Part shown: in pieces, positions 2,880 to 53,939 of the stretch | Layout: each line of letters opens with the position of its first letter | Numbering within the stretch: position 1 is the first letter of the stretch | From: Mesodorylaimus sp. YZB2_4 | Taxonomy: Eukaryota > Nematoda > Enoplea > Dorylaimida > Dorylaimidae | Direction of reading: 5' to 3' | DNA length: 64,000 nucleotides | NCBI GenBank assembly: GCA_030248295.1 | Contig: JASANH010000496.1 | Span: 1-64,000, forward strand | The notes under the pieces: model-generated | Told to the model about the DNA's origin: nothing | Databases searched by the model: none | Seen by the model: the letters and a program-made list of their open reading frames with translations, nothing else | Translations under genes and position numbers: made by a program

Positions 2880-5800
2880 CTAATACCACCGTTTTCCAAG
2901 AAGCTCTCCTAAGGGAGTCATGCTTGGAGACCATGTGAACCAATTGATAGGTGTCTTCGGCGGATCTTCCTCAACACTTGTTGCGGGCTGGGAAGATGCC
3001 AACTTCGCTTCTTCAATTCGTTTCAAAACCTCGCAAATTGCGAGTTTCAAACGACCTTTCTTAGGACGGTGACGCTGAGGCAAGTATGACTTGATTTTGA
3101 GCTTCTTCTGAAAGTACTCCAGATTAGTCTCAAAATCTTTTATACCTGACTCACGGATATAGGCATATTTGTCCTCATCGACGAAGAAATGAACACAATA
3201 AACCTGCTCGGTATTGATTCGTTTCAACGAGTCAGTGAGGGCCTTCTTGACAGCCGGTTTGGTCGGATCTTCATGAGCGCTGTCTGGACCATAGCCTTGG
3301 ATTCGTGCTGGCCACCAGGGGAAGCCAGTGACCTTGGCCCAGACGTATTGACCAACTCGGAAAGGACCACGTTGAGACGCAGGAGCACCAGGATTGGTAG
3401 ATGCATCAGGTGCAATACCATCCTGTGTCGAAGCAGATTCCATAGGCGCATCGGAGACGTCTTGGAGAGGCACATGACCTTCCAAGCGCTCTGTAGTTCG
3501 GACCAAATGCTGTGGATGCCATCGTTCCAAAGGCTTCGATGTATCTTGCAAATTGCGAATCAAGACGCCAGATTCGCCTAGAATTTTGACCACTTCATAT
3601 GGACCTAACCAATGAAGGCTCAATTTCCTAGACATCCCTGGTTGAAAATGGTAATTGGGTTTCCGTACCCAGTCACCAACTTTCAACGAAAGCGGGTGGG
3701 ACTTCTTATCATATTGCAATTTCTGACGCAATTGATTCAATTCGATGCTTTGACGAACGCGTGCATCGATCGTAGCCATACGGAGACGAACTTGATCCAC
3801 ATAATCCGTACCAGATTCTGGCGCGGACTGAGGTCGAGATAATAAGGAGTCAAGTGTCGTTGGCGGATCACGGCCATGACACATGAGATACGGCGAGACA
3901 CCAGTTGTTGTATGTGGTGTATGTCGATAATGCATCATAATCAGTTGCAATCGGTTATCCCAATTCTTCTGATCGGGTAACACATAGCAAGCCATTGAAA
4001 ACCCAATCAATTTGTTCAGGTTTTCAACGTTGCCATTGCACTGAGGATGATACGGAGTAGTCGATACTTTCTTCACTCCCAGATCCTTGCAAAGCCTTAA
4101 GACCAGCTTTGAAAGGAAATTGGAGCCACGATCACTAAGTAGAATGCGTGGAGACCCATGACGGGTAATCCAACCATCTACTAGCAATCGCGCAATCCTA
4201 GCGGCTTTCTGATCAGGCACTGCATAAGCTTCAGCCCATTTGGTGAAGATGCACATGATCACGACGACGAAACGATTGCCATGTTCAGAGATCGGGAAAG
4301 GACCTTGAACATCAATCGCAATGGTGTCGAAAGGTGCCGTCCGCTTGATGATTTCCATCGGCGGGCGCTCGTATTGATGAGGCGCTTTGTAGCGGGCGCA
4401 GGTGCTACACTCGGCACACCATCGGCGTAGATCACGGCGCATCGTCGACCAAAAGAACTTACAGCGAAGTGCTGAAAATAATCTCTCAAACCCAGGGTGA
4501 TTAGCATCCCGATGGGCAGCGCCGAATATAAACTGGCGTAAGTCAGGAGGAATAACCACATGATCATGAATGTGCTTACCCTCAACTAACTTACCCGCAT
4601 GATTCCATCGGTGATTCAGGATACCATCTTCGTCCAGAAGATAGTCCTGGGCGAGCTTGGCGATTTTCTGTGGTTGGTTGAGATCACCATCCAAATACGC
4701 TATGATCGATGACAGTTTGGTATCGTCTCGTTGTAACTTTAGTAATGTCTGCCAAGACGGGGCATCACAAATCGCGTCGGACGCAAGTTGTTTGACGTCG
4801 ATGCCTAATTTGTCGGATTCCACTTGATCAGTCGGATCCAACTCATCGATCAATTCCAAATCGCACTCGGAATCGGAATCATCGGATAGGTTTGCATCCG
4901 GTTGCACACCCAGCTCTAGAGAGGCGTCATTATCGCCATCTAGAGTCGAGTCGGTAAGCCAAACATGAGCACCAGGCACATGCTGAGCATCGGCGATAGC
5001 ACTGGCATAGTCACAGAACATACCATCAGGATCGACGAATTCGTTTTGCTCCGCAATTGTACCCAGACTGGATGAATCGGTCAGATTGACGAAATTGTCC
5101 AACCAATTCTCGGGTAAAGGTACAGGCAAAATTTCTTGGATAACAGAAGGCGATACATCGGGTTCTGTATCCATTGGAGCAGAAAATCGAACCTGTGGTG
5201 ACTGTGAGGCAGGAACCACATTTCTGTTGGTAGTCGTCAAATCAGGGGCAGGTTCCCCATCGGAGAACCCGGAATCAGAATCGGTGGAGCCAACCAACGG
5301 AACTAAAGCCAAAAGGGCGGCAGGGCCACATTCGAGGCAATGCTGCTTTGGCGATAGTGCCGCAAATAGCACTGCATCAGCTGCAGGCAGACGAGATAGA
5401 CAATCGGCGGCTCCATTATTACACCCTTTGGCATGGGTTATGCTAAAGGTGTAATCCTGGAGTTGTAGAAGCCACTTACCTCTGCGGCCTTCGAGATCTT
5501 TCTCTTTGTACCAATAGAGCAGAGGCTTGTGATCGGTGTAAACTTCAAATGGGCGACCATGCAGGTAGTGACGGAAATGCTTGATACCCCAAATGATCGC
5601 GAGGCATTCTCGGTCAATAGTGGGATATCGTTTCTCAGCATCGTTGAGCGTGCGAGAAGCATAGCCAATAGCCCATGACTTCCTCGGTTTGTCGGGAAGA
5701 TACTGTTCCAACACAGCACCGATCGAGTGATTACTGGCATCAGTACTGAGTCGGAATGGCAGTGAATAATCGACGAAACGCATGACTGGATGAGATACCA

Positions 5801-7967
5801 GTGCGTTCCTAAGATCTTCAAATTCTTTCTGGTGAACGTCGGTCCATTCCCAGGTCGATGTCGCTTTGAGGAGATCTCGCAGAGCTTTCGTTCTACGAGA
5901 GAATCCTTCAACGAAAGAACGATAATAGCAGGCCAAACCCATAAAATGATGCAATTGCTGTGTGTCCGTGGGGATAGGAAAATTTCTTACCTTTTCCCTC
6001 GCATCATCATACATACTTACACCCTCGGCGCTGATCCTATGACCAAGGTATTCGACGCTATCCATGCCGATCGAACATTTCGAGGGTTCTAATCTCAGGT
6101 TGGCTTCGCGCAATCGACCAAAGACGTTCTCCAGATGTTCCACGTGCTCATCGAGGGTTTTGCTGAAGACTATTATGTCATCCAAATAGCAGAGGACATA
6201 AATCCAAAGCAAACCCGATAAAGCCAATTCCATACACCGTTGAAACTCAGCGGGTGCATTGCACAAGCCGAATGGCATATTGACGTAATCCCAGAAACCG
6301 AAAGGACATTTAAAAGCAGTCTTCTCGGCTGTCTTGGGGTCGAGCGGAATTTGACTATAACCAGATGTCATGTCAAAGACCGAAAAGAATTTCGCACCAC
6401 GAAGCGTATCTAACATTTCGTGAATATTAGGTAGCGAATGCGCATCCTTTTTCGTGACATTGTTGAGTGCCCGAAAATCGATGCACATTCGCCAGTCGCC
6501 ATTTTTCTTACGCACCATGACGATCAGCGATGCCCAGGGCGAACGCGATGGGCGAATCCAACTGAGTCGAAGAAGTTTCGCAACTTCTTCCTGCACGATG
6601 TGCTTCTGACTCTCGGCCAATCGTCGTGGGCGGGCCATAATCGGTTTCGCATCACCCGTGTCGATGTGATGCGTCGTCAAGGGTGTACCACCGATTTCGC
6701 TCTTGTCCAGAGTGAAGACGTCGGAATTATCGGCGATACATTTCTTGATTCGATCACGACCTTGTTCCGACAACTGATCGTGTCCAATCTTTAATCTGGA
6801 AAGTAAAGTATCTTGTCTCGCTGGGTCGGTTCTATCAATCTCAACCCTATGTGGCCAAACCGGATCACGCGTGAATTCTGTCTTCTGCGCGTATTTTCCA
6901 CGTTCCGAATACCAGAATTCGACTTCAGGGTCGGTCGGCGTAAATGACTCTGCTTGCATATAAGCAGGCGGTCCTGACAGTCGAGGTTCCACCAAAAGAA
7001 ATTGCGGTGCATCCTCGCTCTGGATGAATGGATGATGCATTTCCCAGTTCTTCAGGTAGCCATCCTTAACTCTGCCAAGCACCTGTCGGATAGGGAAGGG
7101 GTCCAGCTCCGAGAGGAATCCCAAACTCGTGAATTTAGGAATAGTCACCGACACATTCGCCAAGTTGACCAACGGAAGTAAGAACTTACCAGTTGATGAA
7201 TCAGGGCGGGCAACACCACGAGGGGCTGCGACGTGTCGTGCTGGCGAGACGGGGTCAAAGCACAAGTCTCGACCATGTAGGGATCTCGGAGCCACAGCTT
7301 CGACGAAGACGTGGTGCCGTGCACGAAGGCGAACAGTTTCTGTCAATCGTGCGGCGCACTTAAGCAGGCCTTTCGGGGCTCGTCGAACTGGGACGCATAC
7401 GCCAGCTAATTCGCCAGCCGTGTATCGAATTTGACCACTGTCGGACCGATATTGGAATCGATGCCGTTGAGCGTTGAAGTCTTCTCCTAGCAGAACAGTG
7501 TACTTACCACGTTCTGAGACGTAGAAGGGCGTGTCGGTCGCAATCTTGTCTCCAATTTTCACGTCCAAATGGATGACACCAAGGACGGGCATTGCTTGTC
7601 CATCGCCATCAATACAATGATCGAAGTTGCCAGGGACCAGTTTCGCACGATCAAACTTTCCCTTAAAGATGCCTTTTAGGGCTCCTTCAGAGATGAGTGA
7701 GATACTAGCGCAACTGTCCACATAGGCGCGTGTTGACCAACCTCGAATCGAGATGTCAATCAGCGGCAATGGAGAACTCGTAGGCAAAGATAAGGAACGT
7801 CCATCTCGCGAAAGACAGACATTCGGCGGTTCACATACTCTAAACTTGTATGAAAGTTTAGGTACGTTTTCAGGCGAGACGAAGAAAATACGGGGTGTCG
7901 GAATAATTCGAGAAGTTTTGGGCGATATACCAGTCTTGTCTGGTACATCGCCCTTTAGGCGTTTTTT
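2880..7967 (-). CDS. pol: gypsy Pol: protease, RT, RNase H, integrase, C-terminal PWWP domain
   Basis: The frame is uninterrupted from the slippery site to TAG 2880-2882 (about 1,695 codons). Numbering from codon 7787: aspartic protease near residue 24 (YVDSCAS, with Cys where the family has Gly) and flap-end LLGEDF; Ty3-type RT with YLDD near 533; RNase H with STDAS near 680 and TDHKPL near 752; an acidic linker; HHCC integrase zinc site near 1090-1130; integrase core with D near 1158 (IAIDVQGP), D near 1218 (SDRGSNF) and E near 1254 (NVENLN); GPY/F module (LGPYEVV) near 1395; then a PWWP domain from about 1475 (YVWAKVTGFPWWPARI). Together these copy RNA to DNA and integrate it. The PWWP occupies the place where chromoviruses carry a chromodomain. 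The protease G-to-C change could impair processing. Confidence 0.95.
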   Translation of the reverse strand, partial: KKRLKGDVPDKTGISPKTSRIIPTPRIFFVSPENVPKLSYKFRVCEPPNVCLSRDGRSLSLPTSSPLPLIDISIRGWSTRAYVDSCASISLISEGALKGIFKGKFDRAKLVPGNFDHCIDGDGQAMPVLGVIHLDVKIGDKIATDTPFYVSERGKYTVLLGEDFNAQRHRFQYRSDSGQIRYTAGELAGVCVPVRRAPKGLLKCAARLTETVRLRARHHVFVEAVAPRSLHGRDLCFDPVSPARHVAAPRGVARPDSSTGKFLLPLVNLANVSVTIPKFTSLGFLSELDPFPIRQVLGRVKDGYLKNWEMHHPFIQSEDAPQFLLVEPRLSGPPAYMQAESFTPTDPEVEFWYSERGKYAQKTEFTRDPVWPHRVEIDRTDPARQDTLLSRLKIGHDQLSEQGRDRIKKCIADNSDVFTLDKSEIGGTPLTTHHIDTGDAKPIMARPRRLAESQKHIVQEEVAKLLRLSWIRPSRSPWASLIVMVRKKNGDWRMCIDFRALNNVTKKDAHSLPNIHEMLDTLRGAKFFSVFDMTSGYSQIPLDPKTAEKTAFKCPFGFWDYVNMPFGLCNAPAEFQRCMELALSGLLWIYVLCYLDDIIVFSKTLDEHVEHLENVFGRLREANLRLEPSKCSIGMDSVEYLGHRISAEGVSMYDDAREKVRNFPIPTDTQQLHHFMGLACYYRSFVEGFSRRTKALRDLLKATSTWEWTDVHQKEFEDLRNALVSHPVMRFVDYSLPFRLSTDASNHSIGAVLEQYLPDKPRKSWAIGYASRTLNDAEKRYPTIDRECLAIIWGIKHFRHYLHGRPFEVYTDHKPLLYWYKEKDLEGRRGKWLLQLQDYTFSITHAKGCNNGAADCLSRLPAADAVLFAALSPKQHCLECGPAALLALVPLVGSTDSDSGFSDGEPAPDLTTTNRNVVPASQSPQVRFSAPMDTEPDVSPSVIQEILPVPLPENWLDNFVNLTDSSSLGTIAEQNEFVDPDGMFCDYASAIADAQHVPGAHVWLTDSTLDGDNDASLELGVQPDANLSDDSDSECDLELIDELDPTDQVESDKLGIDVKQLASDAICDAPSWQTLLKLQRDDTKLSSIIAYLDGDLNQPQKIAKLAQDYLLDEDGILNHRWNHAGKLVEGKHIHDHVVIPPDLRQFIFGAAHRDANHPGFERLFSALRCKFFWSTMRRDLRRWCAECSTCARYKAPHQYERPPMEIIKRTAPFDTIAIDVQGPFPISEHGNRFVVVIMCIFTKWAEAYAVPDQKAARIARLLVDGWITRHGSPRILLSDRGSNFLSKLVLRLCKDLGVKKVSTTPYHPQCNGNVENLNKLIGFSMACYVLPDQKNWDNRLQLIMMHYRHTPHTTTGVSPYLMCHGRDPPTTLDSLLSRPQSAPESGTDYVDQVRLRMATIDARVRQSIELNQLRQKLQYDKKSHPLSLKVGDWVRKPNYHFQPGMSRKLSLHWLGPYEVVKILGESGVLIRNLQDTSKPLERWHPQHLVRTTERLEGHVPLQDVSDAPMESASTQDGIAPDASTNPGAPASQRGPFRVGQYVWAKVTGFPWWPARIQGYGPDSAHEDPTKPAVKKALTDSLKRINTEQVYCVHFFVDEDKYAYIRESGIKDFETNLEYFQKKLKIKSYLPQRHRPKKGRLKLAICEVLKRIEEAKLASSQPATSVEEDPPKTPINWFTWSPSMTPLGELLGKRWY
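7920..7967 (-). promoter_or_regulatory. -1 programmed ribosomal frameshift signal
   Basis: On the minus strand the heptamer A AAA AAC (7967-7961) is in the correct phase relative to gag (codons CCA AAA AAC). Seven nucleotides later, after the gag stop, comes a 14-bp stem: 7953-7940 pairs with 7933-7920, with one G-U pair and a 6-nt loop. Slipping back one nucleotide enters exactly the frame of pol, which is open from here to 2880. Heptamer, spacer and stem all fit retroviral gag-pro/pol sites. Confidence 0.88.
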
Positions 7968-8263
7968 GGAAGAGTCGAGTCCGTATCTTTCGATTTGGAC
8001 TGGCTCAACTTCTCTGAACTAAGGTTTGACCCAGAGTTCATAGTCGATGATCGATTTTGACCACCAGCCGTACATTCGTTAGAAAGATGACGAGAACTAC
8101 CACACTTACCACAGGGGCTTGGGCAGTTTCGGGCGAAATGACCAAAACCTTGGCAGTTGAAACATTTCACTTGGCCAAGATTTTTGGATGAATGTCGAGA
8201 TCTAGGCTGGTTACGAGACGCAGATCGATAGCCATCATATGACGATGATCGATGACGGTTGCT
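7955..8263 (-). CDS. gag: gypsy Gag nucleocapsid, two CCHC zinc knuckles
   Basis: This is the continuation of the gag frame after the TGA at 8264. It encodes two perfect CX2CX4HX4C knuckles in a row: CFNCQGFGHFARNC and CGKCGSSRHLSNEC. Knuckles of this type bind RNA and act in genome packaging. The frame then becomes Ser-rich and stops at TAA 7955-7957, directly after the slippery heptamer at 7961-7967. That arrangement makes the stop the normal end of Gag and the heptamer the entry to Pol. Confidence 0.9.
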   Translation of the reverse strand, partial: SNRHRSSSYDGYRSASRNQPRSRHSSKNLGQVKCFNCQGFGHFARNCPSPCGKCGSSRHLSNECTAGGQNRSSTMNSGSNLSSEKLSQSKSKDTDSTLPKNA

Positions 8264-11095
8264 TCAATACTGGCCTTGGTCGCGGCCGCTAGGACGCGAT
8301 TCCGTTTTGTCGGATCGTTGAAAATCGTGACCAGACGATCGATTCTTGTCGGGACGATACGATTCCTGACCACTGTCGTGTCGATAGCGAGTACTGTATC
8401 TTCCTCGCCATTGACCACGGGGTCGAAATTGGCCTTTCGAATCGTACCGGGGTTGTGACGACGTTTGGTTGAAACGTTTGAATCCACGGTCACGATGGCG
8501 GGTGTACCTGACGGCGGGAACGGAAGAGTCTGAATTAGAGGAAGATGACTCACCTTCAGATTCCTCTCCATTCGGGCCATTGCCATCGTGGTTGTAGTAA
8601 TCGTCGGATGGACTGAATAATTCTTGTGCTGCCATCATGGCCTTGGCGCCAGACAGACCAGCAGTTTCAACCTTGATATACGTTTCGAATTCGCAAGCAA
8701 GGTGAACTCGGCGTTCCAGAGAGACAGGTGATGGTTCGACCAGAACCTGCTTCGTCACTTGTCGTTTCAATGGTTGAACCAATCCTGAGGTGAACTGAAA
8801 AGCTATTTCTTCTTTCAGTTGTGCAGGGGAGTGATCTGGGTACAGTTGTGCGCCCAGATCTCTCAACCGTTCCAAATACTTGGTGACCGGTTCCGATGCT
8901 GACTGAACACAACGTTGAAATTTCAACCGTCGTTGTTCAGCAGACAATGGTCGGTCATAAATAGCAGACATCGCGTTCTTTGCTGTCTCGTATGACTTTT
9001 TTTCGTCAGACGAGAGCAAAGCCCATGATGTGGCGGCGGAATCTTTCATACTACTACCAAAATACCTGACCTTTGTTTCGTCGTCAGCGGCGGCCATCGC
9101 ACTTTCAAACTGACGAAGCCATACTCGGAATTCGCCATCCATACCACCACGAAACGGGTCTAATCGTTGCATGGGGGGTAGGGTGACGTTGCTCTTGGAT
9201 TTGGTAGATTTCTTGGCCTTCGGGCGACGACGGTTTCGACTTCTGTTGCTGCGTTCGCTGCCACTGGAACTACCATCGTCACTGGGGTCATCGTCGGATG
9301 GATGACCTCCGGCCGCATTGCGGTGACGGGAGCCAGTGACTGCCGTCGAATGATTCGTAGCCATCGGTGCCTTGGAGGATGAAGCAGGCGGCTGAAAAGC
9401 AGATGCTACCATACCTGTCGTCGCATGTTGTTGAGCCAAAATAGAGGGCGCCACACTTGGGACAGCGGGATGACCAGTCTGTCCAATCGTCGGTAGGTTG
9501 ACCAAAAACGGTGTACCATTCGCGTCATACAATACAGTATGACCTGCAGGCACCATCGGATGTTGCTGTTGAATGTTGACATAATTCGGATGGTTCAAGA
9601 CCTGTCCCACAGGAATTGAACTCGGGTTACTGTAGGCGTATTGCATCGGTTGGTTCAAGACCTGTGTAGCAGGAATCGAACTCGGATTAATGTATGCGGG
9701 TGGGGCGAACGTGGTTCCAGAGGCATGATGTGCCAATGGGCCCAACGTCTGTTGTTGGACATTTTGTCGATTGGCTTGAGCCTGCTGGATCTCCATTTGA
9801 CGCTTAGCCGCATTCAGCTCGTCCATACGCAAATCGCGTTAGGCTTGCGCAAATGGAGTCATCGGTCGCTCCACTTGCTGACCATTCGCCACATTTGACG
9901 TCGTCTGTTGGTATGTGACGTTAACTGGTTGGCCCTGTTGACCAGGGGGCTGAACATGACTGTCAGTCGGTTCGTGATTGTGTATGGCCACTTCGTCATA
10001 CACATCACCTGAAATCGCATCAATCGCATCTCATAAGTCTTTCTCATACTTACTCATGCCAATCGTTGGCGTGGATGCTGACGTGCGTTCGATTGGTCCA
10101 GGCGGGCGAAGACTGTTGTCTTGTTGACCAGCCGTCATACTGTCGATGCCAGATGTCGCGAATACCAATCGAGATCGGTATTGATTCCACCAGAAATCGA
10201 TTGGATTCCACAAATTCGGCGCGGCGACTTGGTAGAGTTGGAAGGGCAATAATGCATTGCATCGGTCCAAGTCGAAATAACCGAATTCGGCGAAGTATGC
10301 ATTGGCAGCCATCCGAAGGTCGTTAACCCTAGGGATGACTAAATCGATAGGGCGCACTTCCTTACCTGGCCTTTCGCTGTTTGTGAGCCAATAATATGCG
10401 ATACCATACCGATACAATTCGCGGCGAACGGCATGCGGCAGTGACGACTTATTGATCTTTCGAAGGAGTTCACTCGGCCACAATTCGAACCAGCCTAAAT
10501 CTACAGCCACACGAGCCAACAGGCGCAAATCTGAACATTCTAACATGTTCAGTGCACTTGGTGGTACAGCAAACTGATAATCAGGCGGATGCTGCACTGG
10601 AGGCGCCTCTGGCGGATCCGTGCTAGCATGCGCAGTAGCCACAGTAATATCATTACTTACAGCCTTGTCGTCGCCAGTAGGTGCCACATTTTGTTCTTGT
10701 TCGGGGACCACTCGGCCAGGTCGACGATTCGGACCACGAGGGAGCGAACCCGTGACCAAGTCGGCGATCCAATCTCGGGCACCAGCATTCGAGGTTTGAA
10801 CCGGCGGAATAATGTTCGTCGGTTGCGGGTTAGTGCCAGCTGCCACGGCATAAGGGATAGCCGGAGCAGGCACTGAAGACGGACGAACGTCGTTAGGCTG
10901 CTGTCGTGTTTGCACACCAGGCAAACCGGTCTGAGGTCGATGCAATTCATCTTGCATCGTCGGCACATCTCGAGTAGACGCAGAACGATCAACAACTGGC
11001 GGGACAGCCCGAAGTTGTTGACGCGTATTGTAGCCATGTTGAGGCAGACCAAAATAACCACGGCCACGGCCACGAGCACCAGGGTCGTAAGACAT
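8264..11095 (-). pseudogene. gag: gypsy gag, N-terminal and capsid regions, with in-frame stops
   Basis: One reading frame runs from ATG 11095 through the whole interval, interrupted by TGA (10031-10033), TAA (9839-9841) and TGA (8264-8266). The first ~355 codons start with an Arg/Gly-rich tail (MSYDPGARGRGRG) and a Pro/Gln-rich stretch and match no family I recognise. After the second stop, a Gln-rich linker leads to a Retrotrans_gag-type capsid region (around 'LDPFRGGMDGEFRVWLRQFE', about residues 220-375 of that segment), then an Arg/Ser-rich basic tail. Gag would form the particle that packages element RNA. Each stop could derive from CGA or CAA by C-to-T change. The frame continues into the zinc knuckles. 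Confidence 0.85.
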
Positions 11096-11574
11096 GGTGC
11101 TTTGACGATCGATGATAGAATGTCAAAACAGACCTTACCGGAATATTTCGACTTGTCGGCGAGTTAGAAGTGAGAAGTTAGAATAAACGTGTGAGTAGAA
11201 CGATGAAAAAGAAAACAAATCGCAGTCCACACGAATCAGACGAAAATCGCGTCTGGTCCCTATGGAACCAGACACGCAAAATACACACAGAATTAAAACT
11301 CAGTTGACTTACAGCAACAACTGCCAACTTTCGTCAGCAGGTGCAACCAGCACGTCGGTAGTACCGTCGACGGAGATGATCAGGAATAGTTGATGACGTG
11401 TGTTGAATAATAATCTTCGGCGCTGAATAAATGCAGCCGGCAAATGCTCAGACGACCAACGAAGAACCGGCGATCCTCGTGCTGCAATCAAAAGCAGACG
11501 TGACCGTTCGCGACGCCAATGAAACAGTCGGGTTCTCGTGCGTGTACACTGAACCAACTGCGCTATGGTGTTGA
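11096..11574 (-). other. gypsy 5' leader between PBS and gag
   Basis: About 480 nt of untranslated leader. It includes on the minus strand an A-box-like TAGCGCAGTTGG close to the PBS and a pyrimidine-rich stretch before the gag ATG. A short inverted pair (GTCTGGTTCCATAGGGACCAGAC on the minus strand, near 11240-11275) could form a packaging hairpin. No ORF here looks real. Confidence 0.5.
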
Positions 11575-11599
11575 GGTTCGAATCAAGCCACGCAGCCCA
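11575..11599 (-). other. Candidate primer binding site (PBS)
   Basis: The minus strand reads TGGGCTGCG followed by TGGCTTGATTCGAACC. A PBS should start with TGG (complement of tRNA CCA) and continue as the complement of a tRNA 3' end. The GATTCGAACC part is the exact complement of a T-loop/B-box (GGTTCGAATC), so the match appears to extend unusually far into the tRNA. The tRNA isoacceptor was not identified. Confidence 0.5.
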
Positions 11600-11607
11600 A
11601 GTACCGA

Positions 11608-12040
11608 TGTAGTTTATTACGAGCGTCCACTACGCCGGACTAGGGGGACTCACGTAGGATCGGAAGAGCCAGCTACAATCGTCAGGTCGTCGAGGAGTCT
11701 CACTGATCGAACTGATCTCGCCAGGCCAGGAGCAGAGCCTTTATATAGGCGGTGCTCGGGGTCCAGGAACTAGTCCTATCAATCCCTCGCATGTTAGGAA
11801 AACCAGTCAGCTCGGCCTCTTGGCCTCGCTCGGCCCTGACCAGGGAGGAGGGAGACAAATAGTCTGTGCCTCGTGTGCACACTAGATGTCTGACAAATAG
11901 TCTGTGCCTCTTGTGCATATGTCTTATGCAAATAGAAACCACTAGGCATGTCTTACACGTGCCACCAGACCAGCCATCCTGAGCCCTGGTTATCTATTGT
12001 GAGCATTGGCTGGTCTAAGAGTTTTGAGTCTGTCATAACA
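11608..12040 (-). mobile_element. Putative 5' LTR of the gypsy element
   Basis: On the minus strand this 433-bp segment begins TGTTATG and ends CTACA, the TGT...ACA termini typical of LTRs. It holds a TATA box (11740-11747) and an AATAAA signal (11613-11618), spaced as expected for U3-R-U5. The tRNA-like PBS begins 8 nt beyond its end and the gag ATG lies about 510 nt downstream. The 3' LTR would lie left of position 1, so the ends cannot be confirmed by comparing the two LTRs; the boundaries are inferred from termini and signals only. Confidence 0.5.
11740..11747 (-). promoter_or_regulatory. TATA box in putative LTR
   Basis: The minus strand reads TATATAAA in a GC-rich setting. Transcription would start about 30 nt further on, near 11710, and run into the gag leader. 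The polyadenylation hexamer at 11613-11618 falls about 95 nt after that start, consistent with an R region. Confidence 0.55.
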
Positions 12041-22604: not shown

Positions 22605-24350
22605 ACCCCGGATCGGGGAAGGAACTTTCGGGTCCAGTCGGGTCAGCAAAATTTTGGGTCGGGTTGGGTCGGAAATCGGGTCGGGTCCTGTCGAAATCAG
22701 GTCAGGTCACTTTTTTGAAAAATCGGGTCGAACGGGTCGAAAAAAACATAAATTTTGCAAGTTACTACTATTAGCAGCTACAGAAACCTTCCCATACTTG
22801 TTCGACTCTAAGATTCGCAGTATATGCGTCATGCATGCATGCACAAAGTCTTTCATTCCACGTTCTCATTCTGCGTCACTTTCAGGAATGTCAGACGAAT
22901 TGTAAGCTTTGAGAATGACCCCCCCAGTCTTTCTCGAAGTTTTTCTGAGTAATTTCTATATGTGAAAAGTCCTCATAGACATTCTTGTCAACTCTGATGA
23001 ATGGATGGGACTAGCCATACTTAAGAAAGAATTGATAACTTCTGGCAGGTCCTAGGAGTATTTACAATCACATTTGATTTCTGAATATGACATAACTTCC
23101 TGGGTATACTTGGCTGAAAGAGCAGTAAAGTCTGTACCCAAAGACCAAATATGTACCAATAATAGCCCTTTCGACCACCATCCATGTAACAATTGCAACC
23201 TCATATCCCTCCATAAGTAGTGGAGGTTCTGACAGGGGCTAGTGTCCAGCACAATATGACTTTGTCGGGTTGAACCCGACCTGATCCGGTGTCTGGCGAC
23301 ATGCAATGCTGAATGTCAAATGCCTGTATGTTGTGGCATTGCAGATAAATGTGAAAGTCATGGGTGGGGAAATGCGGTGAAAGATCACGTACAGATAGTA
23401 TAAATCGAGAAAGGTCAACACGTGTGCTACAGGTTGCATGAAACTTCCTAGTAAAACATGAGCAAGCACCAGCAAGGTCCAAGCATGACTTAGTGAACCA
23501 CAGACTCACCCTAGAAAAGAACCACACCTAACAAAACCCACCGCAAACCCAACAGTCTCGATGGCCTGTTTTATGTATCTTTGTTTGAGGTAGCAGCATA
23601 CGGCTACAAAACACTGATGACCTTGATGCGCGGCGCTGAGGTACATACCACGCATTGCTAAAGCACAATGCGTGTGATGTGTAGTTAATTTCGGTCATGA
23701 AAAATCTAGTCGGTGGACGGTTCAACCTGACAAAGTCATATTGCGCTGGACACTAGCCCCTGTCAGAACCTCCACTACTGATGGAGGGATATGAGGTTGC
23801 AATTGTTACATGGATGGTGGTCGAAAGGGCTATTATTGGTACATATTTGGTGTTTGGGTACAGACTATACTGCTCTTCCAGCCGAGTATACCCGGGAAGT
23901 TATGTCATATTCAGAAATCACATGTGATTGTAGATACTCCTAGGACCTGCTAGAAGTTATCAATTCCTTCTTATGTTAGAGTATGGCTAGTCCCACTGAT
24001 TTATCAGAGTCGAAAAGAATGTTTATGAGAACTCTCACATATGGGCCCTCCCCTTTGCAGAAATTACTCAGAAAAACTGGTTATTCTCAAAGCTTACAGC
24101 TCGTCTGACATTCTCGGAAGTGACGCAGAATGAGAAAGTGGAATCAAAGACTTTGTGCATGCTTGACTCAAGCATATACCGCGAATCCTAGAGTCGAACA
24201 AGTATGAAAAGGTTTCTGTAACTGCTAATAATAGTAACTTGCAAAATTCATGTATTTCTGACCTGTTGAACCCGATCTTTTAAAAAAGTGACCTGACCTG
24301 ATTTTGACCTAACCCGACCAAAAATTTAAGGTCGGTAAGGGGGGTCCAAA
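22605..24350. mobile_element. Foldback element with ~650-bp inverted arms
   Basis: 22605-23268 and 23727-24350 are imperfect reverse complements separated by about 460 bp. The outer ends carry repeated GGGTCGGGT/ACCCGACC motifs. The inner ends share GTGTCCAGC(A/G)CAATATGACTTTGTC. The loop holds no recognisable transposase. Long-armed, loop-bearing palindromes of this type are typical of foldback or non-autonomous DNA transposons. No target duplication was confirmed. Confidence 0.75.
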
Positions 24351-42359: not shown

Positions 42360-43600
42360 TTGTTTGACATGCTGTCTGTCATGATGAAAGACCAATTGCT
42401 TAAACTGTATACTGCCGCCAGTAGTCCAGCGGGCTTATCTAGTGCGGGAAAGTTGTACGAAACAGCTATTGCTAATTGGCTTACTGTATCACGAGACGAA
42501 GTCCGTGAATTTCTCTCTGGAATTGACTCTCACATTTTGGTCAAGCCTAAAAGACAACATTTTGCTCTTAATCGTGTCATTACCTCGGGAATTAATAGTG
42601 TCTATATGGGTGATTTGGCTGACATGCAGATATTAGCAGCTATCGATTTTTGCTGATTCTGGTTGACGCGTTTAGCAAAAAGTGGTGGGTGGTGCTAGTC
42701 AGGAACAAGGGCGCCCAGGCCATGACCGGGGCCTTTATCAGTGTCTACGCCGACGAAAGAAATCGACCGAAAGCCTGGCAGGTCGATTGTGGGACTGAAT
42801 TCTACAACAAGTCAGTCAAGGATCATAAAGATGGGTATCCGCATGTATTCGACTTCGAGCGAGATCAAAGCCAGCATGGCCGAGAGGGCAGTCAGAACAC
42901 TGAAGGGAAAAATATTCAAGTACCTGCTACATGTTCATGTTCATGTTTTACCACATCACCAAACGCTTATGCGCACTCGAGGGTGAAGGGACACATTTTA
43001 CACGAAATGATTTACCAGCCCGCGAGTCGAACACTTGCCTGTAATTGCGCACCTGGCGTGAGAGGCAGACGCCTAACTCACCAGGCCACGAGGCCGGTGA
43101 GTTAGGCGTCCTAATTAGACATAACCTAATTAGGCGATATATTATTATTTTGACTGATTTGGTCGAGTCCTTTAATAATAGTGTTAGCCGTGTCATAAAA
43201 ATAGCGCCAAAAAATGTCACGCTTGGGAGCATTGATTTGGTTTTCAAGAACTTATATCCTGATAGTTGGAAAGTGTATCCTGAGCATCAACGAAAAAAAA
43301 ACCGTGTTCGCTGTTAGTGACTCCGTTCGGATCGCAAAAGAGAGGCATCCCTTCCCTATAAGTAATTGAGTCACTTGGTCTAAGGAGATTTTCCCAATTC
43401 GAACCATAGTGCATAAAAAGCCTATCGTGTACAAGTTGACTTCCGAGACTGGTCTTATCGAGGGTATATTCTGCGCTTAAGAATTACAAAAAGCAACTCC
43501 TACTGGCGTTTATCGCATCGAAAAACTTTCACGTCGACCAACTAACAGGGCTGGTGAACGTAAGCTGCTAGTCAAGTGGCAATGGTATAAGTAAAAAAGC
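42360..43600 (+). pseudogene. Polinton/Maverick integrase, broken and split by a SINE
   Basis: Retroviral-type integrase pieces lie in several plus-strand frames. 42360-42656 holds the N-terminal part and DLADMQ with the first catalytic Asp. 42650-42840 has LVDAFSKKWWVVLVRNKGAQ and QVDCGTEFYN with the second Asp. About 42840-42925 has MAERAVRTLKGKIFKY with the Glu. The SINE at 42925-43110 interrupts it, then DLVESFNNSVSRVIKIAPKN resumes at 43150. The C-terminal end (to ~43600) has a beta-barrel-like part and LLVKWQWYK, like a decayed chromodomain. At least four frame changes and two stops. In intact elements this enzyme inserts the linear DNA into the host genome. Confidence 0.85.
42925..43110 (-). 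mobile_element. tRNA-derived SINE inserted in the integrase gene
   Basis: On the minus strand: A box in CTCGTGGCCTGGTGAGTTAGG, B box AGTGTTCGACTCGCG about 45 nt later, a tRNA-unrelated body (CTCGAGTGCGCATAAGCGTT), and a tail of ACATGAACATGAACATG. It closely matches the copy at 63121-63300 and shares its 3' body with 26455-26540. It lies between catalytic and C-terminal parts of the integrase, so it inserted after the Polinton was in place. Confidence 0.85.
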
Positions 43601-43741
43601 TGGATTTAAGAATTAGTTATTGCCACTGGAGATTTGGACGAGTAAGAAGAATCATGAAAAGATTTACAGTGTTCATGACTAGCTCGGGCAGCAAGCACGC
43701 TGTTCCGCAAAATAGGCATACTTTATTTAGCAATGTCTTGA

Positions 43742-44080
43742 TTGAACCATATGCTCGAGAATGAAGTCACCTTAGCCGCCTGTTATATACAAACGTCTTT
43801 GCCTGTAGCCTTAGTGTGTACTGATATTGTGGTGCCCAGTCTGTATTATGACAGGATGGTGCCTATAGTCGGCGTATACTCCAGTGTCCTCAGTGATGTT
43901 CAGCGCACTTACGTTGGTCTATTAACTAACAACATTTTTCCAATTACTTACTCATATCACTGATATCAATGGAGAGACTTGTCTTTAGATGCCGTTTCTG
44001 TGGTTGTTTTGCTTTTAGTTGAATGATACTCCTATTCTCACGTCATTGGAGCACAAAAAAGGAAGAGTAGAGAAGAATAT
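43742..44080 (+). pseudogene. Polinton-block fragment, unassigned
   Basis: An open frame (MLENEVTLAACYIQTSLPVA, then DIVVPSLYYDRMVPIVGVYS) stops at 43963; coding-like sequence may continue in a neighbouring frame to about 44080. It lies between the integrase and the basic protein in a run of codirectional Polinton genes. I think it is a conserved Polinton-associated segment but cannot name the protein with confidence. Confidence 0.4.
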
Positions 44081-44106
44081 CCGAAATATTTTCATGTTTC
44101 ATAGTC

Positions 44107-44319
44107 ATGGCAGAGCAGCCTCGTGCTCGCACGAACCATTCAGTTGATCGTTTGCACTTGTTTTCCTTGTTTGGTAAAACCAATTCTTCCAAAACGGACA
44201 GAAAGAAAAAGATTCGTACGCCTAAAATCCAAAGGTCCTCCAAGTCGGTGGTTCGGAAGCGTTCATTGAAACGCAAACGAGTTAGCAAGAAGAGTAAGAA
44301 GGTCCAGAAGAAGAAATGA
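44107..44319 (+). CDS. Small very basic protein of the Polinton block
   Basis: 70 residues from ATG 44107. The C-terminal half is almost entirely Lys/Arg/Ser (KRSLKRKRVSKKSKKVQKKK). It ends 4 bp into the start of the major capsid gene (overlap at 44316-44319). Size, charge and position suit a DNA-condensing or core protein. The frame is intact, unlike most neighbours. Confidence 0.6.
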   Translation: MAEQPRARTNHSVDRLHLFSLFGKTNSSKTDRKKKIRTPKIQRSSKSVVRKRSLKRKRVSKKSKKVQKKK

Positions 44320-45620
44320 ATCGACTAACGTTAGATACTACTGTGGACTTGGACGTGTTCTCTGATCCGCCAGAAGAAAGAAGTGTAGCCGAGAATCGTA
44401 AAGAAATTATACCGGTCAATGCGTCTTTGCCTAATGATGATGTAAATACTGCCTTGGAATTTCGTATCCCCAGCATCCCTAACTGGTTCACTGATTTGTC
44501 GCCTACTCTCCCGGAATTGCACATGGAAAACCAGTATGTAACTGATAAAGAAACGGAGAAAGGCATATTCAGGACAAAACAAATCGGCTTGGTACCGAAT
44601 GTGTTAATGTCCATGTTTTCTGGTGTGACTGTTTTTTTGAACAATCAGCTGGTTCTACAAAACAGCAGCTGCTTGCCCTGGAGTGCTTATTTGGATGTTT
44701 TGTCTAATTACTCGTATGATCAATGAAAATCGTGGTTGAGTGGCAGTGGGTGGTACGATGATGGCCTGCAAGGACTCTCACCCGAATTACTGAACACCTT
44801 CAAGCCATGCTATGACAGTGGCACTGGTCACCTGATCGGGCCTATTCAGCTGGACTTTTCCAAGATTCGTAAATATATGATTCCGGGGTCGAGATGGTCA
44901 TTCGCCTGTTCCGACGAGATCCAAAGGCCTTCATTTCGTACATGATAGATCCTGCTGAAAAAGAAGATTTCACAGTTACCATTGAACGGGCCTATTTGCA
45001 CGTCCGCCGCATCAGACTGCACGATACATCCTTCGCCGTCATGGAACGACGTCTGATGACAACGCCGGCCGCCTATAGCTTCAATGACACCATCCTTAAA
45101 CCGTTGATTGTACCTGAAAATGTCTTATCGGTGGACGCTTGCATCTACGAGGGCTTACTGCCTTCTCGCCTGGAAATTGTTCAGTTAATGCAATCGTGAT
45201 TTCGCTGGACCCATAGCCAACAACCCGTTCATGTTCCAGCCATACAATAAGGAAAACGTCACCCTGGAGAAAAATGGCCTATTGGTTACAGCACCATACC
45301 AGTGTGACTCTGTAAAAAATGATTATGTACGCATGTACTTGGACTATTTTCTGAACTCGGGCTGCTCTCTGGAAAAAGCGGGCATGTCAGAAATCAGTTT
45401 TGAAAATTATGGCAATTACTCAAACATCATGTGTTTTAACTTGGAACGCTTTGACGAATGTGGGAGTACTTTGAAGCCGACCAACGAGTACGGCAACCTA
45501 CGTTTGAAAATTGACTATGACAGTTCTGTTCTTTTGCAACGCCCATTGGTCATTTTGTGCTTGCTGCGTTTTAATCGCACCATAAAAATTAATATTCAAG
45601 AAATGCTGATGTCTCAATAA
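44316..45620 (+). pseudogene. Polinton/adintovirus-type major capsid protein, broken
   Basis: Three frame segments in series: 44316-44945 (with TGA at 44724-44726), 44894-45199, and 45203-45620. Recognisable parts are LDVFSDPPEE near the start, FLNNQLVLQNSSCLPWSAYL, FSKIRKYMIPG, ERAYLHVRRIRLHDTSF, NNPFMFQPYN and the end segment with NEYGNLRLKIDY. The total of ~430 codons and the order fit the double-jelly-roll major capsid of Polinton/adintovirus-like elements. Capsid genes are why Polintons are considered possible viruses. One stop and two frameshifts make it inactive. Upstream basic protein and downstream ATPase support the call. Confidence 0.8.
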
Positions 45621-45695
45621 ACTGATAAGCTTTGATCCTGTTGTTGTCGTGAAGTCTACATAAGCACACACACATGACGAAACCCATATGCAGTC

Positions 45696-46340
45696 ATGAC
45701 TAGCGGCAAAGAAGCAGTGTTTGCTTTGCAAACTCCATTCACCATGACCATAGCCGGCAGTACTTCCTGCGGTAAAGCCTACTTCGTCATGCAGCTGATT
45801 AAAAATCGTGACAAAATATTCAACACCTTCTTCACGAATGTCTACTATCATTATGCCATGTGGCAGCCCGTCTTTGATGAGATGGAAAAAGTAGATGGAG
45901 TCAAGTTCACAGAAGGATCACCCAGCATAGACGAGATAGATTCGGATTCTCTTTTGGTCTTGGACGATCTGTTTCCACAACTGACCCAAAATAAAGATTT
46001 AGTGGATTTATTCTGTGTCAAATCGCATCATTAAAATATCAACGTCATATTCATCACACAATCGTTTTTCTATGATTCCAAAGTTATGCGCTGCGTGACT
46101 AGAAATTCGTATTACGTGGTTCTGTTCAAGTCACCCAGGATGACAGCCGTGGTTGAACAATTGTCCCGACAAATCTGCTCGCAGAAACCGAACTACTTGT
46201 TGGATGATTAAAACAAAGCCACGAAAGACAGACCTGACAGATATCTCTTTTTCAGTCTAAATCCGCGTGCCGATGAAAAATTAGCCGTGCTCTCTAATAT
46301 ATTACCTACTGAGAATGATGATCCGCATGTTTTTATATAA
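45696..46340 (+). pseudogene. Polinton genome-packaging ATPase, two in-frame stops
   Basis: One frame runs from ATG 45696 to TAA 46338-46340, interrupted by TAA at 46032-46034 and 46209-46211. Walker A-like AGSTSCGKA (about residues 20-28; Ala replaces the usual Ser/Thr after Lys) and Walker B SLLVLDDLF (about 85-93) are visible, followed after the first stop by NINVIFITQSFFYDSKV and a sensor-like region. This is the FtsK/HerA-type ATPase that packages DNA into capsids. Both stops could come from CAA by C-to-T change. The order after the capsid gene is typical. Confidence 0.85.
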
Positions 46341-46399
46341 GTTGCTGAGATTTTATGAAATCTGTCGGCATTGAGAGCCATCTCAAGTCTTTGTTGTCA

Positions 46400-46690
46400 A
46401 GTGATTTTGAAATTTTTGTTCTAGCCTACTAATAAAGTCGTCAAGCTAATTTTGCTAGAAGTCTCCGGCCCTTTGGTGCAGGCTATCGCTGAGTTGGCCT
46501 TGAATGTTTTAAACAACGTGAATTTTTTAAGTCAGCAAGACGAACAAAGCAAAATCAATCAAGCACAGGTGCCCTTTGTCCATCTCGGCTAATCGTCACG
46601 AGACGTTAGCCAGGAAAAGGCATTTGATTAAAACAAAAGGGTTTCGATTCGTTCCAATATTATTGCAAATAACCTTACCTTATGTCGAGA
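46400..46690 (+). pseudogene. Small helical Polinton protein, frameshifted
   Basis: A first frame (VVKLILLEVSGPLVQAIAEL, then ALNVLNNVNFLSQQ) stops near 46590. A second frame beginning about 46576 continues with ETLARKRHLIKTKGFRFVPI. A leucine-rich helical start followed by a KRxLxxxKGF basic patch is a layout seen in small ORFs next to the packaging ATPase in this element class. Function unknown. Confidence 0.55.
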
Positions 46691-47119
46691 GAAATGGTAA
46701 TGGTGCCCGAAGCAGGACGGAGGCGACTGATAGATCAACAACAGATGCCCCCTATGAATCAGTCACCAGCTTCACAACCTCCGCCAGTCATTTCGGAAGT
46801 TGCAGATGCTCAACCAAAAGAAAAACAAAGTAAAGCTGGTGACTTGATCAGTCTTTTACCAAAAGCTTATCGAACCAGGGCTGCTATCACCATGCATTAT
46901 ATTGCGTCTTCTATAAATCATGCTAAACGTGTGGTCTTTACTGATGGTATGGTTGGTGCGCATGTTATTGATTATTTACGATACGTTTTAAATTCAATTC
47001 TCTCACACGCTCCCACGTACAATGAAAAATTTATGACCATGTTGCAATTTGCTGTTGTACCCGAAAGTGTTTATCATCGTCATGTCGTGCCAGTCTCTGT
47101 AAAATGGCTGACATTTTGA
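46682..47119 (+). CDS. Conserved-type small Polinton ORF
   Basis: 145 intact residues from ATG 46682. The N-terminal ~50 residues are Pro/Gln-rich and disordered-looking. From ~55 a helical domain follows (SLLPKAYRTRAAITMHYIAS, then GAHVIDYLRYVLNSIL, then FAVVPESVYHRHVV). It is codirectional with the capsid and ATPase genes and seems to be a small structural or maturation protein, but I cannot assign a function. It is one of few unbroken frames in the block. Confidence 0.55.
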   Translation: MSREMVMVPEAGRRRLIDQQQMPPMNQSPASQPPPVISEVADAQPKEKQSKAGDLISLLPKAYRTRAAITMHYIASSINHAKRVVFTDGMVGAHVIDYLRYVLNSILSHAPTYNEKFMTMLQFAVVPESVYHRHVVPVSVKWLTF

Positions 47120-49976: not shown

Positions 49977-50384
49977 GTTATCGTCGGATTTGCGAATTGT
50001 GGTGTTATTGCCGTTGCCATCGGCGCTTTTGCACTTTACTCCCCAAACCCGCCATCCCGTGAATCCCGCGGTTTTTTCGCGGGATTCACGGTTTTCTGCC
50101 AACGGAGCACGAATAGCCTCGACTGACAGAGACTCCAGGCGAGTGCACACATACGCACTCACGCCTCCACGCGCTCTCAATGCTCAGCACTGAAGATCCG
50201 CGCGAGAACGCTCAGAGGGTCGTCCAACCCATATCATGTCTGAAACATCAACTCCACGGGTTGCGACCGCGCTTATCGATTAAGCGCCGCGCGCCCAACA
50301 CAACAACGCTCGAAACCTACACGGCTTACCAAATAAATGACGCTGCCACGGCTAAACAAATAAATGACCCTGCCACCAGGTGCA

Positions 50385-52590
50385 CTCAAGCCCAAGCATA
50401 CATCAGGCCCATCCAGGACTGAGCCTAAGCCTACATCCAGCCCATCCAAGACTAAGCCTAAGCCTAAATCCAGCCCATCCAAGACTGAGCCTAAGCCTAA
50501 GCCTACATCCAGCCCATCCAAGACTAAGCCTAAGCCTAAGCCTAAGCCTAAGCCTACATCCAGCCCATCCAAGACTAAGCTTAAGCCTAAGCCTAAGCCT
50601 AAGCCTACATCCAGCCCATCCAAGACTAAGCCTAAGCCTAAGCCTAAGCCCAAGCATACATCCAGCCCATCCAGGACTGAGCCTAAGCCTACATCCAGCC
50701 CATCCAAGACTAAGCCTAAGCCTAAGCCTAAGCCTACATCCAGCCCATCCAAGACTAAGCTTAAGCCTAAGCCTAAGCCCAAGCATACATCCAGCCCATC
50801 CAGGACTGAGCCTAAGCCTACATCCAGCCCATCCAAGACTAAGCCTAAGCCTAAGCCTAAGCCTACATCCAGCCCATCCAAGACTAAGCTTAAGCCTAAG
50901 CCTAAGCCTACATCCAGCCCATCCAAGACTAAGCCTAAGCCTAAGCCTAAGCCTAAGCCTACATCCAGCCCATCCAAGACTAAGCCTAAGCCTAAGCCTA
51001 CATCCAGCCCATCCAAGACTAAGCCTAAGCCTAAGCCTAAGCCTACATCCAGCCCATCCAAGACTAAGCCTAAGCCTAAGCCTAAGCCTACATCCAGCCC
51101 ATCCAAGACTAAGCCTAAGCCTAAGCCTAAGCCTAAGCCTACATCCAGCCCATCCAAGACTAAGCCTAAGCCTAAGCCTACATCCAGCCCATCCAAGACT
51201 AAGCCTAAGCCTAAGCCTAAGCCCAAGCCTACATCCAGCCCATCCAGGACTGAGCCTAAGCCTACATCCAGCCCATCCAAGACTAAGCCTAAGCCTAAGC
51301 CTAAGCCTACATCCAGCCCATCCAAGACTAAGCTTAAGCCTAAGCCTAAGCCTACATCCAGCCCATCCAAGACTAAGCCTAAGCCTAAGCCTAAGCCTAA
51401 GCCTACATCCAGCCCATCCAAGACTAAGCCTAAGCCTAAGCCTACATCCAGCCCATCCAAGACTAAGCCTAAGCCTAAGCCTAAGCCTACATCCAGCCCA
51501 TCCAAGACTAAGCCTAAGCCTAAGCCTAAGCCTACATCCAGCCCATCCAAGACTAAGCTTAAGCCTAAGCCTAAGCCTACATCCAGCCCATCCAAGACTA
51601 AGCCTAAGCCTAAGCCTAAGCCTAAGCCTACATCCAGCCCATCCAAGACTAAGCCTAAGCCTAAGCCTACATCCAGCCCATCCAAGACTAAGCCTAAGCC
51701 TAAGCCTAAGCCTACATCCAGCCCATCCAAGACTAAGCCTAAGCCTAAGCCTAAGCCTACATCCAGCCCATCCAAGACTAAGCCTAAGCCTAAGCCTAAG
51801 CCTAAGCCTACATCCAGCCCATCCAAGACTAAGCCTAAGCCTAAGCCTACATCCAGCCCATCCAAGACTAAGCCTAAGCCTAAGCCTAAGCCCAAGCATA
51901 CATCCAGCCCATCCAGGACTGAGCCTAAGCCTACATCCAGCCCATCCAAGACTAAGCCTAAGCCTAAGCCTAAGCCTACATCCAGCCCATCCAAGACTAA
52001 GCTTAAGCCTAAGCCTAAGCCTACATCCAGCCCATCCAAGACTAAGCCTAAGCCTAAGCCTAAGCCTAAGCCTACATCCAGCCCATCCAAGACTAAGCCT
52101 AAGCCTAAGCCTACATCCAGCCCATCCAAGACTAAGCCTAAGCCTAAGCCTAAGCCTACATCCAGCCCATCCAAGACTAAGCCTAAGCCTAAGCCTAAGC
52201 CTACATCCAGCCCATCCAAGACTAAGCCTAAGCCTAAGCCTAAGCCTAAGCCTACATCCAGCCCATCCAAGACTAAGCCTAAGCCTAAGCCTACATCCAG
52301 CCCATCCAAGACTAAGCCTAAGCCTAAGCCTAAGCCTACATCCAGCCCATCCAAGACTAAGCTTAAGCCTAAGCCTAAGCCTACATCCAGCCCATCCAAG
52401 ACTAAGCCTAAGCCTAAGCCTAAGCCTAAGCCTACATCCAGCCCATCCAAGACTAAGCCTAAGCCTAAGCCTACATCCAGCCCATCCAAGACTAAGCCTA
52501 AGCCTAAGCCTAAGCCTACATCCAGCCCATCCAAGACTAAGCCTAAGCCTAAGCCTAAGCCTACATCCAGCCCATCCAAGACTGGCTTTA
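50385..52590. repeat. Minisatellite with embedded TTAGGC hexamers
   Basis: About 50 units of a constant ~23-nt block (CATCCAGCCCATCCAAGACT) joined to two to six copies of CCTAAG, whose other strand is (TTAGGC)n. The hexamer number often follows a recurring 5-3-4-4 order, giving a higher-order period. All unit lengths are multiples of 3, so four frames stay open for about 740-775 codons (SLSL/PKPK on plus, LGLG/RLRL on minus). Mutual exclusivity of these frames argues none is selected as protein. Variant units contain AAGCATACATCC or CCAGGACTGAG. Confidence 0.9.
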
Positions 52591-52640
52591 ACCAATACAC
52601 AAGGACACAACATCCGTTTTCTTTTATTTACTAACCAATC

Positions 52641-53627
52641 CTAACACGGATATTTTTCCACCACATCTTTCCACAATTGAAAAAACAAATTCTCGCCACG
52701 GAACCGTTTTCTCCACATAAATTCATTAACATATTCTAACAATAAATCTCTCCTAGTTCCGAAGCGATCTTTATGATACCTTTTGAAATGCTGCCACGTT
52801 CCCTCGATTCCATTCGTGCACGCACCGGTCACAGGATCGACGAAATTTTCGCTGTGGTTCACCGTCAAATGCGAATATCCTTTGGGCAATTGTTCTATAC
52901 CACCGTACGCAGCCCAGCAATCGGAAATAATAATCGATCCCGGCAAGATGAATTGTTTTATCAACGGGATCAATGTCGCCTTGTCGCGACGTTCAACGGG
53001 CACAAGGAAACAATTTGTCGAGCCACGTTCCATGCCGCCGAAAATCCATTGCTCACCAACCAAGTGGCGACGGTTGTACTTCCGCTTGGTCAACACGGTT
53101 TCGTCAATTTCGACCACTTTACCGGGACCGCCAATCAAAACCGGGTGGGCAATAAAATGTTCCGCCGTGACATCACGAAAAAATTGGCCCCAATCGGTAA
53201 ATGTGTGCTCGCTAATCGTTGAACCATCGCCACGTCGCAATTCATTCTGACAAAATTCAAGTGAATAAACGTTTTTCGCCCAAAAATACGACAGCTGCCA
53301 AATTTCCGAGGCTGCTAAATTCGCGTTCTCAAAAAACGTATCCACGAAGAACCCTCGTTCGCGACGTTTGCAATTGGGGCCCGAATTCCCGCATCGCCAG
53401 CTGAACATCGCCTTCTCTTCACCATTCTCTGTTCTCTTCAACCGTTTTCGAAACGTCATATCGCAGGAGCACTTGTCGCACTTCACCGAATCTTCCGGGG
53501 ACCGCAAAATGTTATATGACGCCAAACGGTGAATAAATTCTTCATCACTGCAATTCAAATCCAAATAAAGCTTCCTTAAGTTATACTCTTTTAACAAATC
53601 CAAGCCGGTACACGACGAAACAGCCAT
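52641..53627 (-). CDS. Merlin-type (ISXO2/IS1595-like) DDE transposase
   Basis: An intact 328-residue intronless protein. An N-terminal zinc-ribbon-like region has CDKC (50-53) and C79/C86. The DDE_Tnp_IS1595/ISXO2 domain follows: D175 in GGPGKVVEIDET, D236 in GSIIISDCWAAYGG, E275 in GACTNGIEGTWQHFKR. The NHSENFVDP segment before the Glu is characteristic. It cuts and pastes the element by recognising its terminal repeats. It lies between matching 65-bp inverted repeats, with stop at 52641 next to the minisatellite. A full frame with all catalytic residues suggests recent activity. Confidence 0.93.
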   Translation of the reverse strand: MAVSSCTGLDLLKEYNLRKLYLDLNCSDEEFIHRLASYNILRSPEDSVKCDKCSCDMTFRKRLKRTENGEEKAMFSWRCGNSGPNCKRRERGFFVDTFFENANLAASEIWQLSYFWAKNVYSLEFCQNELRRGDGSTISEHTFTDWGQFFRDVTAEHFIAHPVLIGGPGKVVEIDETVLTKRKYNRRHLVGEQWIFGGMERGSTNCFLVPVERRDKATLIPLIKQFILPGSIIISDCWAAYGGIEQLPKGYSHLTVNHSENFVDPVTGACTNGIEGTWQHFKRYHKDRFGTRRDLLLEYVNEFMWRKRFRGENLFFQLWKDVVEKYPC

Positions 53628-53939
53628 TCTGATTAGCTACAGTGCTTTCTTATCATCTCCTATAGGTATTTATACCCCCTTCGCCCCCCACCCACCCCAA
53701 AGAAACTACGCGCTCACCTCTTTCGTTGCAGTCGCAAAGGGGCGGGGCACCTCTTTCGTTGCAGTCCCAAACTGTGCGCGCGTTCTCGGCAAAGCAGTCA
53801 ATAACGCAGGCTTCAACCCGTTCGCCTGATGTTTCTAAACATCCCGACGCGAAAGCCCCGCCCACGGCGGGAATCCCGCGAAAAAACCGCGGGATTCGCG
53901 GGATGGCGGGTTTGGGGAGTAAAGTGCAAAAGTGCCCTG

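Follow-up and report, generated by a model that had tools for sequence, protein, structure and literature searches.

The minus-strand retrotransposon at the start of contig C385 raised the question of whether the pol polyprotein of a Gypsy element ends in a PWWP chromatin-reader domain and, if so, what this domain would do for the element. The window analyzed here is the first 64 kb of this contig, in a 145-Mb genome of 1067 contigs from the nematode Mesodorylaimus sp. YZB2_4.

Architecture of the window element

Window base 1 is also the first base of the contig, and the element is truncated there. Only the 5' LTR is present in the window copy; paired LTRs and 4-bp duplications were found in the relatives L017 and L025. 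The pol frame was free of stops from the protease region through the end of the PWWP, and it shows the RT–RNaseH–integrase order and the GPY module by which Ty3/Gypsy elements are recognized (Table 1). Pfam matches to a protease in the window pol were all below the cut-offs. The pol overlaps the CCHC frame in a different reading frame, and one stop lies between the CCHC and gag frames. In the window copy, interruptions affect both the gag region and the third gene; in L009, the homologous gag stretch is open as one frame.

The third gene is common to L016 (93% at the DNA level) and L011 (77%), and its product shares 36% of amino acids with that of L022, a member of a sister PWWP family. The Pfam scan gave nothing near the cut-off for two of its frames (1450–2229 and 1–1419), and no above-cut-off match was found for the post-pol frames of the PWWP families L006, L008, L014, L022, and L026. 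Two copies of the window family, L009 and L010, lack the third gene; in its stead they have in common a different segment, about 1.2 kb long, ahead of the 3' LTR (8146–9413 in L009 and 527–1740 in L010).

Table 1. Features of the truncated Gypsy element, in window coordinates
Feature	Position	Strand	Evidence or remark
5' LTR (approximate edges)	11506–11958	−	BLASTN hits after pol in L009 and L010 and ahead of a shortened pol in L012
Open frame upstream of gag	10031–11122	−	Counterpart in L009 within one 1025-aa frame
gag frame, 524 aa	8264–9838	−	Homologous to L009 frame
CCHC zinc-knuckle frame	7955–8263	−	zf-CCHC, E 1.9e-8
pol, (protease)-RT-RNaseH-integrase-PWWP, 1712 aa	2880–8018 with stop (2883–8018 without)	−	Open throughout
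Reverse transcriptase, aa 502–662	6033–6515	−	RVT_1, E 3.5e-35
RNase H, aa 750–856	5451–5771	−	PF17917, E 5.5e-35
Integrase zinc-binding H2C2, aa 1156–1212	4383–4553	−	PF17921, E 9.1e-15
Integrase core rve, aa 1227–1325	4044–4340	−	PF00665, E 3.2e-11
GPY motif (WLGPYEVV), aa 1472–1474	3597–3605	−	Read in translation
PWWP in frame with pol, aa 1556–1643	3090–3353	−	PF00855, E 3.2e-12 (whole protein), 4.6e-12 (genome scan)
Putative cage positions 1 and 2, F1566 (3321–3323) and W1569 (3312–3314) of GFPWWP	3312–3323	−	NSD2 PWWP alignment
Putative cage position 3, F1611 in VHFFVD	3186–3188	−	Aligned to NSD2 VQFFGD
Third gene, downstream of pol	1–2772	−	Frames 2326–2772, 1450–2229, and 1–1419; interrupted in window copy

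Elsewhere in the window, an ISXO2/IS1595-type transposase frame (52641–53636, minus strand; PF12762, E 7.3e-19) is presumably Merlin-like. The frames at 42623–47119 (plus strand), with one weak rve match below the cut-off (E 2.3e-4), resemble those of a broken Maverick/Polinton-like element. A long array of short-unit repeats (50273–52640) is rich in K, P, and S in one frame, and several frames are open on both strands. Nested inverted repeats were found at 22742–24257, with 258-nt arms that are 95% complementary and 179-nt arms that are 88% complementary. An exact match to the nematode SL1 leader was not found.

Identity of the PWWP domain

The initial annotation had read the pol frame as running without a break past GPY into a PWWP-like fold at 2950–3370. 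The frame is open there, and the PWWP match falls within this interval, about 80 aa C-terminal of the GPY motif. The match is significant, scoring 47.2 bits against a curated PF00855 cut-off of 25.6. The domain stands last in pol after GPY, that is, where chromoviruses carry their chromodomain, as had been proposed. The possibility that pol stops earlier in other copies fails on L009, L010, L011, L012, and L016, in all of which pol continues through the PWWP and stops at the same distance beyond it.

Comparison with solved structures pointed to the same domain family. The window tail alone, used as a single sequence against the PDB, matched DNMT3B (8.6e-7, summed over two copies) and the PWWP chains of NSD2 (phmmer E 1.3e-5, with most of the tail aligned). 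A profile built from nine element PWWPs matched DNMT3B (1.3e-20, two copies), MSH6 (6.5e-18, over the whole domain), NSD2 (1.5e-17), HDGF (1e-14), and LEDGF (7.8e-14). The nearest solved PWWPs in sequence are those of DNMT3B, MSH6, and NSD2/NSD3, all domains of cellular proteins. AlphaFold2 on the single sequence of the domain returned a model of very low confidence (pLDDT 42.4), which was set aside.

We take the aromatic cage of PWWP domains to consist of the aromatic residue preceding the PWWP motif, the second tryptophan of the motif, and a phenylalanine of strand 3. All three residues (F-W-F) are present in the window PWWP when it is aligned to NSD2, so that F1566, W1569, and F1611 are the putative cage of the window family, in line with the aromatic cage that the initial annotation had in view.

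Distribution of the fusion in the genome

The genome scan with PF00855 returned at least 146 PWWP matches, counted among the 150 best of 173 candidates that were scored, and 35 of the 146 lie in frames no shorter than 1000 aa (hand count). Ten further long pol frames, selected for having a PWWP match, were scanned over their full length; RT, RNaseH, H2C2, rve, and PWWP were found in all ten, and the PWWP was the last domain and above the cut-off in each (26.5–54.1 bits), L026 being the weakest and barely above it. Among the best 150 of 691 H2C2 candidates, which were scored, 50 were followed by a PWWP match on their own strand no more than 3 kb downstream, and 100 were not; the PWWP and H2C2 lists are both capped and ranked by score, and 50 of 150 is therefore not a frequency. 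The distance from H2C2 to PWWP was 922–1071 bp in 48 of the 50 cases, 338 bp in one, and 2772 bp in one.

Six integrase frames from the 100 PWWP-less cases were scanned, and neither PWWP nor Chromo was found at E 0.1 in any of them; five are informative, as the L039 frame stops within the integrase. Past the integrase, the tails of these PWWP-less frames have a high content of S, P, T, and Q. A chromodomain in place of the PWWP was considered and rejected, as the window pol has no Chromo match and thus lacks the domain by which chromoviruses are recognized. Genome-wide, the Chromo profile gave 70 matches, none of them in a frame longer than 859 aa.

Twenty PWWP matches, mostly in short frames, were fetched in a search for host genes, and 19 of them proved to be element-borne; PWWP counts in such genomes consequently need to be reread. 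The sole host-like PWWP in this sample (L062, 29.3 bits) is possibly of the donor type from which the domain was captured.

Homologues were also sought in a protein collection. None was found for the integrase tail with the PWWP (E 0.001, 1747 candidates) or for the PWWP alone (E 0.01, 19 candidates), and not one Gypsy integrase tail came up as a match in the former search; the collection therefore seems to be poor in eukaryotes, and these blanks tell little about the spread of the fusion. No viral contig matched the element patterns.

Phylogeny, selection, and recent activity

The RT–RNaseH tree, which is unrooted and contains near copies and long branches, comprised 12 PWWP frames, six PWWP-less frames, and one fragment. 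The PWWP label switches once on this tree (84/84; 82% of 200 bootstraps). With a midpoint root, the L017 group, which carries the PWWP, joins the PWWP-less rows (96/97), and thus a single gain and a single loss both fit. The tree of the PWWP domain alone, in which two of the 15 inner branches are well supported, recovered the same small groups (the window copy with L020, L021, and L013; L023 with L026; and the L017 group), and this agreement fits a long joint descent of the RT and the PWWP. A Gypsy/Ty3 lineage probably took up the PWWP once; the PWWP-less Gypsies beside the L017 group may instead have lost it.

The ratios of nonsynonymous to synonymous changes (dN/dS) in element pairs were estimated by NG86. 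Pairs that are informative show purifying selection on the PWWP, with dN/dS values of 0.05 (window/L011), 0.08 (L017/L028), 0.09 (L002/L006 and L017/L018), and 0.16 (window/L020), where the dS of about 2.5 for L002/L006 and window/L020 approaches saturation. Closer pairs, with few changes, gave scattered values (0 for window/L009, 0.27 for window/L016, 0.37 for L019/L020, and 0.56 for L018/L015), and dS was not computable for the distant pairs window/L013, L020/L013, and L023/L026. Between families, the PWWP evolves faster than the RT.

A chance readthrough into host sequence or an artificial join in the assembly, the most trivial account of the fusion, can be given next to no credence, because a single architecture recurs at separate loci, in numerous copies that belong to several families, and is maintained by purifying selection.

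Some PWWP families have moved recently, and LTRs that are almost identical occur in two of them. The direct repeats flanking the coding frame are 100% identical in L017, 99.5% in L025, 98.5% in L028, and 97.9% in L018, and 4-bp duplications were read by hand at the edges of L017 (CACT) and L025 (TACG). In L015, a 546-bp direct repeat (1471–2016 and 6087–6632; 99.8% alike) overlaps the end of pol and is perhaps a nested or tandem insertion.

Cage variation and the predicted role in target choice

A total of 48 element PWWPs were compared at the cage positions by a hand tally in which the copies are not independent. Position 2 was W in 39, L in six, and A in three. Position 1 was F or Y in 17 of the 48, and 14 had both position 1 and position 2. 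The full combination F/Y-W-F was found in 10, all of the window and L020 families. Position 3 was L in L013, L014, and L024, and L047 stops short of it; in the L017 group, L replaces the cage tryptophan. As judged from this alignment, the cage of the other families is altered, and the window family ranks with the strongest candidates for methyl-lysine reading. Because the clade as a whole has not retained the cage, a function common to all families cannot be methyl-lysine reading.

We propose that a Gypsy/Ty3 lineage acquired the PWWP at the integrase C-terminus, beyond the GPY module, and retained it as several families diverged. The domain would bind the nucleosome through DNA and a methylated histone lysine and would hold the integration complex there, so that the target site would be selected in cis; in the window family, with its full cage, the likeliest mark would be H3K36me2/3. 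An integrase that carries its own nucleosome-binding arm is the simplest interpretation, and we consider it reasonably probable that the PWWP serves as a chromatin reader for target choice in cis.

A different account, in which the PWWP is a general arm of the intasome that binds DNA or protein (a host protein or the target DNA) and reads no histone mark, is consistent with the families that lack cage residues yet retain the barrel core, and with the L017 group, which has L for the cage tryptophan and is still under selection (L017/L028). It also has a precedent in the vestigial chromodomain of Ty3, which touches TFIIIB and the target DNA (PMC8632968). The full cage of the window and L020 families would be superfluous for a plain binding arm, and we regard this account as rather unlikely.

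The PWWP may also act after insertion or on the particles of the element, in nuclear retention, counter-silencing, or the handling of RNA or cDNA. Integrase C-terminal domains may have other roles as a matter of general knowledge; we found no direct support for such a role here, and the position at the integrase end is the place of the chromodomain, which makes this account quite improbable.

For the preferred reading, target choice in cis, a more specific version is a self-sufficient counterpart of the LEDGF system, in which the integrase would read H3K36 methylation and insert into transcribed gene bodies, with the altered cages of other families directing them to different chromatin. H3K36me reading by the window PWWP is plausible from its residues and gene-body insertion is what it predicts, but this version as a whole is tentative. 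H3K36me3 itself is likely to occur in the host, since an SRI domain of the SETD2 type is present; it lies in two adjacent pieces, and a stop within the matched stretch of one could correspond to an intron.

Proximity to genes was assessed against kinase and RRM exons, with neighbours thinned by hand to 207 places and the host-like match on C71 excluded; by our own arithmetic, a uniform scatter would place at most about 14% of matches within 50 kb. Of the PWWP matches, 10 of 145 lay within 50 kb, as did 5 of 100 integrase matches that lack a PWWP, and the difference is not significant (p 0.60). The counts within 20 kb were 3 versus 0 (p 0.27), and on contigs 1–200 those within 100 kb were 17 of 75 versus 3 of 38 (p 0.07), all three comparisons being of low power. 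The recent insertion L025, whose family lacks the cage tryptophan, adjoins a chemoreceptor-like frame. A host receptor frame matched Srsx, and the 18S rRNA, whose identity Rfam confirmed, has nematode-like features.

Integrases with fused chromatin readers are a natural system in which to test how mobile elements select their targets. Chromodomains fused to integrases are often tied to heterochromatin, and Gao et al. reportedly described chromodomain targeting in 2008. A PWWP in cis would be a reader of the euchromatin type and hence the opposite strategy. As the cage residues vary among families, the connection between reader and insertion site is testable inside one genome, where the PWWP-less Gypsies form a built-in control.

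Comparison with known systems

No PWWP in an LTR element was described among the titles and abstracts listed from the open-access PMC literature, and the term PWWP was not met in the excerpts of PMC11244446, PMC5906684, and PMC12147562. The view in the initial annotation that this is not a standard Gypsy architecture thus holds for the PWWP itself; it has to be narrowed in that chromatin readers of other kinds have been found in Gypsy elements.

The PWWP elements resemble chromoviruses in the order of the Gypsy pol and in the fusion of a chromatin-reader barrel of the Royal family after GPY, but the reader is a PWWP and not a chromodomain. Chromodomains provide the targeting precedent for chromoviruses, and the chromodomain of Ty3 assists in positioning the intasome on TFIIIB (PMC8632968). 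Ty3 integrase likewise has an extra barrel past the integrase C-terminal domain, which it uses for target placement, although its chromodomain is vestigial and its partner is TFIIIB (PMC8632968).

In LEDGF/p75, the PWWP binds H3K36me3, and the protein tethers HIV integrase (PMC8149907). A PWWP that joins integrase to chromatin is also the mechanism predicted here, whereas LEDGF/p75 is a host protein that acts in trans for lentiviruses through an integrase-binding domain (PMC8149907) and the PWWP of the window element lies within pol. Retrotransposons that acquired cytosine methyltransferases likewise captured a chromatin-related host domain, but theirs is an enzyme and not a histone reader (PMC5890265); the terms PWWP and chromodomain are absent from the text of that article.

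The nearest precedent is the Tudor-bearing Gypsy-10_Ec32 of Ectocarpus, reported in 2025 as the first Tudor transposable element to the knowledge of its authors, who also infer that stramenopile Gypsy elements gained chromatin readers independently several times (PMC12477816). Both are Gypsy elements whose chromatin reader is C-terminal and is not a chromodomain; Gypsy-10_Ec32 carries a Tudor domain and is known from one brown-alga lineage, and a yellow-green alga has a homologue (PMC12477816), whereas the reader described here is a PWWP, occurs in several families, and resides in an animal. The PWWP at the end of the Gypsy integrase is best read as an addition to the chromodomain and Tudor readers and as a counterpart of both.
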